DNA of 64,000 nt from assembly GCF_003990725.2 (NCBI RefSeq), contig NZ_CP030064.1:2294001-2358000 (forward strand), read 5' to 3'. The DNA comes from Halorubrum sp. PV6 (GTDB lineage Archaea; Halobacteriota; Halobacteria; Halobacteriales; Haloferacaceae). Each line of letters opens with the position of its first letter. Positions within the stretch are counted from its first letter, which is position 1. A model generated the notes under the pieces. The model had not been told where the DNA came from. It ran no database searches and worked only from the letters and a program-made list of their open reading frames with translations. The translations under genes and the position numbers were made by a program. Positions 5,952 to 6,046 of this stretch are shown here, in pieces.

Positions 5952-5957
5952 TTTATA
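5952..5957 (+). promoter_or_regulatory. TATA box of the box C/D RNA gene
   Basis: TTTATA lies about 25 bases before the predicted 5' end of the RNA at 5982. No protein gene starts downstream on this strand until 7391, so this TATA box is best explained as the promoter of the small RNA. Confidence 0.55.
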
Positions 5958-5981: not shown

Positions 5982-6046
5982 GGTGGCCATGACGACGTGT
6001 TACCCCCACTGAGCCCCTTGTGATGAGGGTTTTCCACCGAGCCACC
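5982..6046 (+). ncRNA. Box C/D guide RNA (candidate)
   Basis: In order, the sequence shows a 5' stem strand GGTGGC (5982-5987), box C ATGACGA (5989-5995), a 13-base guide, box D' CTGA (6009-6012), a 7-base spacer, box C' GTGATGA (6020-6026), a 10-base guide, box D CCGA (6037-6040), and a 3' stem strand GCCACC (6041-6046) fully complementary to the first. Internal boxes are perfect. The terminal C and D boxes each carry C where U is expected, at the two positions that face each other as the U-U pair of the kink-turn. Size, order and spacing fit archaeal 2'-O-methylation guides. The first guide contains GTTACCCCC, complementary to the GGGGGUAAC that I recall in helix 69 of archaeal 23S rRNA. 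Confidence 0.72.

Follow-up and report, generated by a model that had tools for sequence, protein, structure and literature searches.

A haloarchaeal box C/D sRNA gene of the helix 69 guide family with a lineage-wide C-C pair in its terminal kink-turn

Introduction

Gm1950 is a known 2'-O-methylated nucleotide of the 23S rRNA of Haloarcula marismortui, and the main text of Grosjean et al. (2008, PMC2584109) attributes the modification at this position to "aFib + sRNA". For the Gm1934 site of Haloferax volcanii, the same text predicts a C/D sRNA candidate and reports homologues of it in 25 archaeal genomes; Pyrococcus sR41 is suggested there to modify the G1950 equivalent (Grosjean et al., 2008, PMC2584109). 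The kink-turns of archaeal C/D RNAs mostly have a U:U pair (Ashraf et al., 2017, PMC5689011). Canonical archaeal box C/D sRNAs carry boxes RUGAUGA and CUGA. A further C/D guide of relevance here lies in the intron of pre-tRNA-Trp and targets C34 and U39 of that tRNA.

We analysed a 64-kb stretch of the genome of Halorubrum sp. PV6 (hereafter the window), in which a box C/D guide RNA with matched U-to-C changes in boxes C and D had been proposed from the sequence. Here, we describe this element, its relatives, its probable target, and the unusual pair in its kink-turn.

Results and Discussion

Anatomy and setting of the element

The locus occupies the gap between a luciferase-like monooxygenase gene (PF00296; 4958-5899, + strand) on its upstream flank and a convergent aldo/keto reductase gene (PF00248; 6185-7258, - strand) downstream. 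Direct reading of the + strand at 5982-6046 gives a 65-base element, GGTGGC-C-ATGACGA-CGTGTTACCCCCA-CTGA-GCCCCTTG-TGATGA-GGGTTTTCCA-CCGA-GCCACC, which we delimit from stem to stem as the sRNA gene on its anatomy, conservation and descriptor match. The 5' arm of the terminal stem, GGTGGC (5982-5987), pairs with the 3' arm, GCCACC (6041-6046). Between them lie a single-base spacer C (5988), box C ATGACGA (5989-5995), the 13-base D' spacer CGTGTTACCCCCA (5996-6008), box D' CTGA (6009-6012), an 8-nt D'-C' connector GCCCCTTG (6013-6020), box C' TGATGA (6021-6026), the 10-base D spacer GGGTTTTCCA (6027-6036), and box D CCGA (6037-6040). A TATA box, TTTATA (5952-5957, + strand), begins 30 nt before the terminal stem and is its putative promoter. 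The coordinates, stem, box order, spacer lengths and TATA box given in the original prediction were correct base for base.

Boxes C, D', C' and D in that order, 13- and 10-nt spacers, a terminal stem and a guide adjoining D' are shared with canonical archaeal box C/D sRNAs, as are guides directly upstream of D' and D and tandem G-A nucleotides (one GA each from boxes C and D) beside a 6-bp covarying stem. Two features set the element apart from the canonical RNAs: the conserved 8-nt D'-C' connector, and C in place of the consensus U at both box C position 5 and box D position 2. Since the orthologues outside haloarchaea have U at both positions, the C-C state is variation within the family and no ground for exclusion from it. 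The folding energy of the single strand is unremarkable (z -0.5), as is usual among C/D RNAs. Genes for fibrillarin, Nop and L7Ae are all present in the Halorubrum sp. PV6 genome.

A conserved gene, not a chance array

Because the boxes are short, and the guide match described below is not significant by itself, the element could in principle be a chance array that arose in GC-rich intergenic DNA and encodes no RNA. We searched for the order C-D'-C'-D with a descriptor that accepts either U or C at both kink-turn positions. It had a single match in the window, the element at 5982-6046, and none in 100 simulated windows from a first-order Markov model, whether or not a stem was required. BLASTN with the 121-bp region matched 55 of 59 haloarchaeal relatives in 20 of 23 genera, and the sRNA is also present in more than 100 named haloarchaeal records. 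In a phylum-wide sample of 295 genomes, a pattern of guide, D' and C' boxes detected it in 81, many of them non-haloarchaeal, and the guide-box core extends to methanogen-side members, whose orthologues have canonical boxes C and D (ATGATGA/CTGA). Conservation in related genomes, the lack of which would have counted against the original prediction, is present.

The terminal stem covaries. Among 63 unique haloarchaeal sequences, 98.9% of its cells are paired, as against 37-40% when the arms are slid, and compensatory T-A/C-G and G-C/A-T exchanges occur; all six pairs are found in 114 of 118 named haloarchaeal records, which had been selected by a pattern with a fixed box C. Among 30 loci (29 of the same genus, including that of Halorubrum sp. 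PV6, plus L031), 29 have a TTTAT whose start lies 30-32 nt before the stem. No Rfam family reached its gathering score for the element, and its weak matches were C/D-box RNAs without exception. For a gene, the conservation of the element across its relatives is decisive. Conservation across families refutes a chance arrangement of boxes; with the covarying stem and the empty simulations, we give that explanation practically no probability.

Judged from its sequence, the element is a true gene for an archaeal box C/D sRNA, and it belongs to a known family already predicted in 2008. It shares both the helix 69 target nucleotide and the guide class with the H. volcanii Gm1934 candidate (Grosjean et al., 2008, PMC2584109), and by this likeness in target and class the two almost certainly belong to one orthologous family. 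Pyrococcus sR41, for which the same target was suggested, is represented by Rfam RF01126; this model had no match listed for the PV6 locus at E values up to 10, and matched a methanogen-side orthologue (L168) weakly (E 0.93).

The D' guide and helix 69 of 23S rRNA

Within the D' spacer, the guide GTTACCCCC (5999-6007) forms a perfect 9-bp duplex with GGGGGUAAC, part of helix 69 in the genome's own 23S rRNA. The GTTACCCCC adjoining D' is conserved across the phylum, in which the 81 genomes mentioned above match the exact guide-box pattern. Base 6004, the fifth upstream of box D', pairs with the fourth G of the GGGGG in GGGGGUAAC. By helix 69 numbering, we take this G to be the equivalent of E. 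coli 1909, and so of H. marismortui 1950. The D' guide has a complement in a stable RNA with the position of the known Gm at N+5.

A D' guide pairing with helix 69 had been part of the original prediction. The match and its register on a known Gm bear this out, but the duplex covers 9 bp and not the whole 13-base spacer, the base adjoining D' being unpaired, and the complementarity is not significant alone, as 92 of 200 shuffled guides match equally well. What carries the case for the target is therefore conservation, together with the known modification at exactly the predicted nucleotide. Guide and target are invariant where read, the target region having been read in the relatives' loci apart from some that lay in the opposite orientation. 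From these sequence comparisons, the sRNA would almost certainly direct a known methyl mark onto the haloarchaeal ribosome.

Our overall account is that the element would be transcribed independently as a haloarchaeal box C/D sRNA and would associate with L7Ae, Nop5 and fibrillarin. By pairing with helix 69, the D' guide would direct 2'-O-methylation, in Halorubrum sp. PV6, of the G that corresponds to E. coli 1909 (Gm1950 in H. marismortui, Gm1934 in H. volcanii). The D half has no conserved target and probably serves as an orphan or structural part, and the terminal kink-turn, with a C-C pair at 3b-3n in place of U-U, is a lineage-wide haloarchaeal variant. The anatomy, the covarying stem, conservation, the guide-target match, the position match and the presence of the three protein genes support this account, to which we assign a probability of roughly 94%.

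The D guide, the connector and a paralogue

The D guide GGGTTTTCCA differs between relatives, both inside the genus and outside it. In a genome scan allowing one mismatch, its 12-base complement was exact only at the sRNA locus itself, and no credible target was found in the rRNA operon and 47 tRNA genes, where 140 of 200 shuffled guides equalled it. The variability of the D guide suggests that it has no conserved target.

Many of the orthologues outside haloarchaea (L164-L195) have a recurrent GCAGGGG core in the D guide, which suggests a second conserved target in the methanogen-side relatives. Haloarchaea may have lost this function or put another in its place.

The connector GCCCCTTG is nearly invariant in haloarchaea. 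We considered its pairing with a CAAGGGG in 23S rRNA, about 140 nt past the target, and rejected it, variants of the connector being unmatched by changes in 23S rRNA. A paralogous C/D sRNA (L071; G043:C1:1583796-1583864) has the same connector and type of D guide, and its D' guide is changed to TATTTTGCCCCCGCACTGA, possibly for a different target.

Split copies in several genera

In several haloarchaeal genera, we found copies of the sRNA gene that break off inside GTTACCCCC(n)CTGAGCCCC or directly behind it and continue into sequence with TTTCTAYTAAYAGA-like ends, the break points falling in the D' guide, the D' box or the connector. Such copies are located at L285:8490-8540 and L284:110-330 (genome G031), L287:2300-3340 (G043, for which locus L031 is also listed), L294:7489-7530, L316:about 1540-1600, and L367:3739-3790. 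A further 5' half with its TATA box, at L288:11580-11620 in genome G009, is cut at GTTACCC and has no TTTCTAYTAAYAGA-like motif; its contig carries a ParA-like gene, and the intact sRNA gene of this genome stands beside the aldo/keto reductase gene in L289. An intact copy is also present in G031, G032, G043, G009 and L316.

The inserted sides in G031 (L284 and L285, on two separate contigs) carry csa3, cas6, csc2 (type I-D-like), cas4 and cas1 genes, and the sRNA gene of this genome may thus have been the integration site of a CRISPR-Cas island. The arrangement of the split copies suggests that mobile elements recurrently use the sRNA gene as an attachment site. In a review of archaeal tyrosine recombinases, searched by keyword, sRNA genes were not mentioned.

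A C-C pair in the terminal kink-turn

Of special interest is the terminal kink-turn, the sole feature of the element beyond routine interest. Bases 5993 (box C position 5, kink-turn position 3b) and 6038 (box D position 2, position 3n) are both C and replace the U-U pair, as originally proposed. Among the 63 unique haloarchaeal sequences, 3b-3n is C-C in 57, C-U in five and A-C in one; beyond the 57, L056 and L061 had been counted in a wrong register (GTGATGACGA) and are also C-C in the register of the stem (ATGACGA/CCGA). Outside haloarchaea, all 31 unique sequences have U-U. We detected only one clear change between the two states on the tree, that between haloarchaea and the outgroup. Box C reads RTGACGA, with C at position 5, in 56 of 57 parsed haloarchaeal sequences, and box D reads CCGA in 50 of 54 parsed sequences and in 108 of 118 named records. 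The pair -1b:-1n is C:G in 61 of the 63 sequences, as opposed to mostly A:U outside haloarchaea. In main-text passages on the H. volcanii candidate (Grosjean et al., 2008, PMC2584109), the C-C feature was not seen.

The C/D guide in the tRNA-Trp intron, which differs from the PV6 sRNA in target and in its intronic location, shows the same pair: its boxes are GGGACGA/CCGA in the PV6 genome, and of 47 haloarchaeal loci that were parsed, 46 have C-C at 3b-3n and only L282 has U on both sides. An unparsed locus, L283, has GTGACGA with CTGA. The C-C change is real, haloarchaea-wide, and not specific to the helix 69 guide.

In two low-GC haloarchaeal relatives (L072, L082), the internal boxes read CTAA (D') and TGGCGA (C'), as if their sheared A-G pair had been exchanged for G-A.

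Drift or folding in salt

One reading of the C-C pair is neutral drift under high-GC mutation pressure, tolerated since L7Ae would fold any kink-turn with intact G-A pairs. Haloarchaeal genomes are GC-rich (about 71% GC around the locus), L7Ae was reported to fold the kink-turn variants tested with it (PMC5689011), and the internal boxes also wander between U and C, the equivalent position being C in 35 of 54 C' boxes and 17 of 54 D' boxes. Box C position 5 is, however, far more constant than these, and loci with a GC content of 35-49% still have C at 3b; one of them, L031, carries U at each of the remaining three U/C positions. The low-GC loci weaken GC drift as a sole cause; we put drift at somewhat less than an even chance.

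The pair may instead be an adaptation, the terminal kink-turn being tuned to fold with ions only in molar intracellular salt, where canonical C/D kink-turns need L7Ae. A C at 3b without G at 3n permits ion-induced folding of kink-turns (McPhee et al., 2014, PMC4382518), and C:G at -1b:-1n favours it (Ashraf et al., 2017, PMC5689011). The haloarchaeal RNAs fit both rules, and the published rules would predict that C-C favours salt-induced folding. The persistence of C-C at a local GC of only 35-38% (L072, L082) and its recurrence in the tRNA-Trp intron guide point the same way. Against this, 4b:4n stays G:C, which does not favour ion-induced folding in the published experiments (Ashraf et al., 2017, PMC5689011), and those tests concern the Kt-7 context at low salt. 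The C-U state is tolerated in several genera, so strict C-C matching is not required, and the single change on the tree gives one separation of haloarchaea from the outgroup. Folding in salt is a plausible reading of the C-C pair, but we consider adaptation rather improbable. In its broadest form, the terminal kink-turn of C/D guide RNAs would have been remodelled throughout the haloarchaea, by C-C at 3b-3n with C:G at -1b:-1n, such that high intracellular salt can pre-fold it and dependence on L7Ae for folding during RNP assembly is loosened; this proposal is speculative and, in our estimate, unlikely.

Significance

These data give a sequence-level and comparative basis to an rRNA guide previously predicted in haloarchaea. 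The split copies would add a small-RNA gene to the candidate integration sites of archaeal mobile elements. Finally, the kink-turn pair that controls ion-induced folding is substituted in the same way in two haloarchaeal C/D RNAs that are unrelated to each other, which makes salt-adapted assembly of guide RNAs directly testable.
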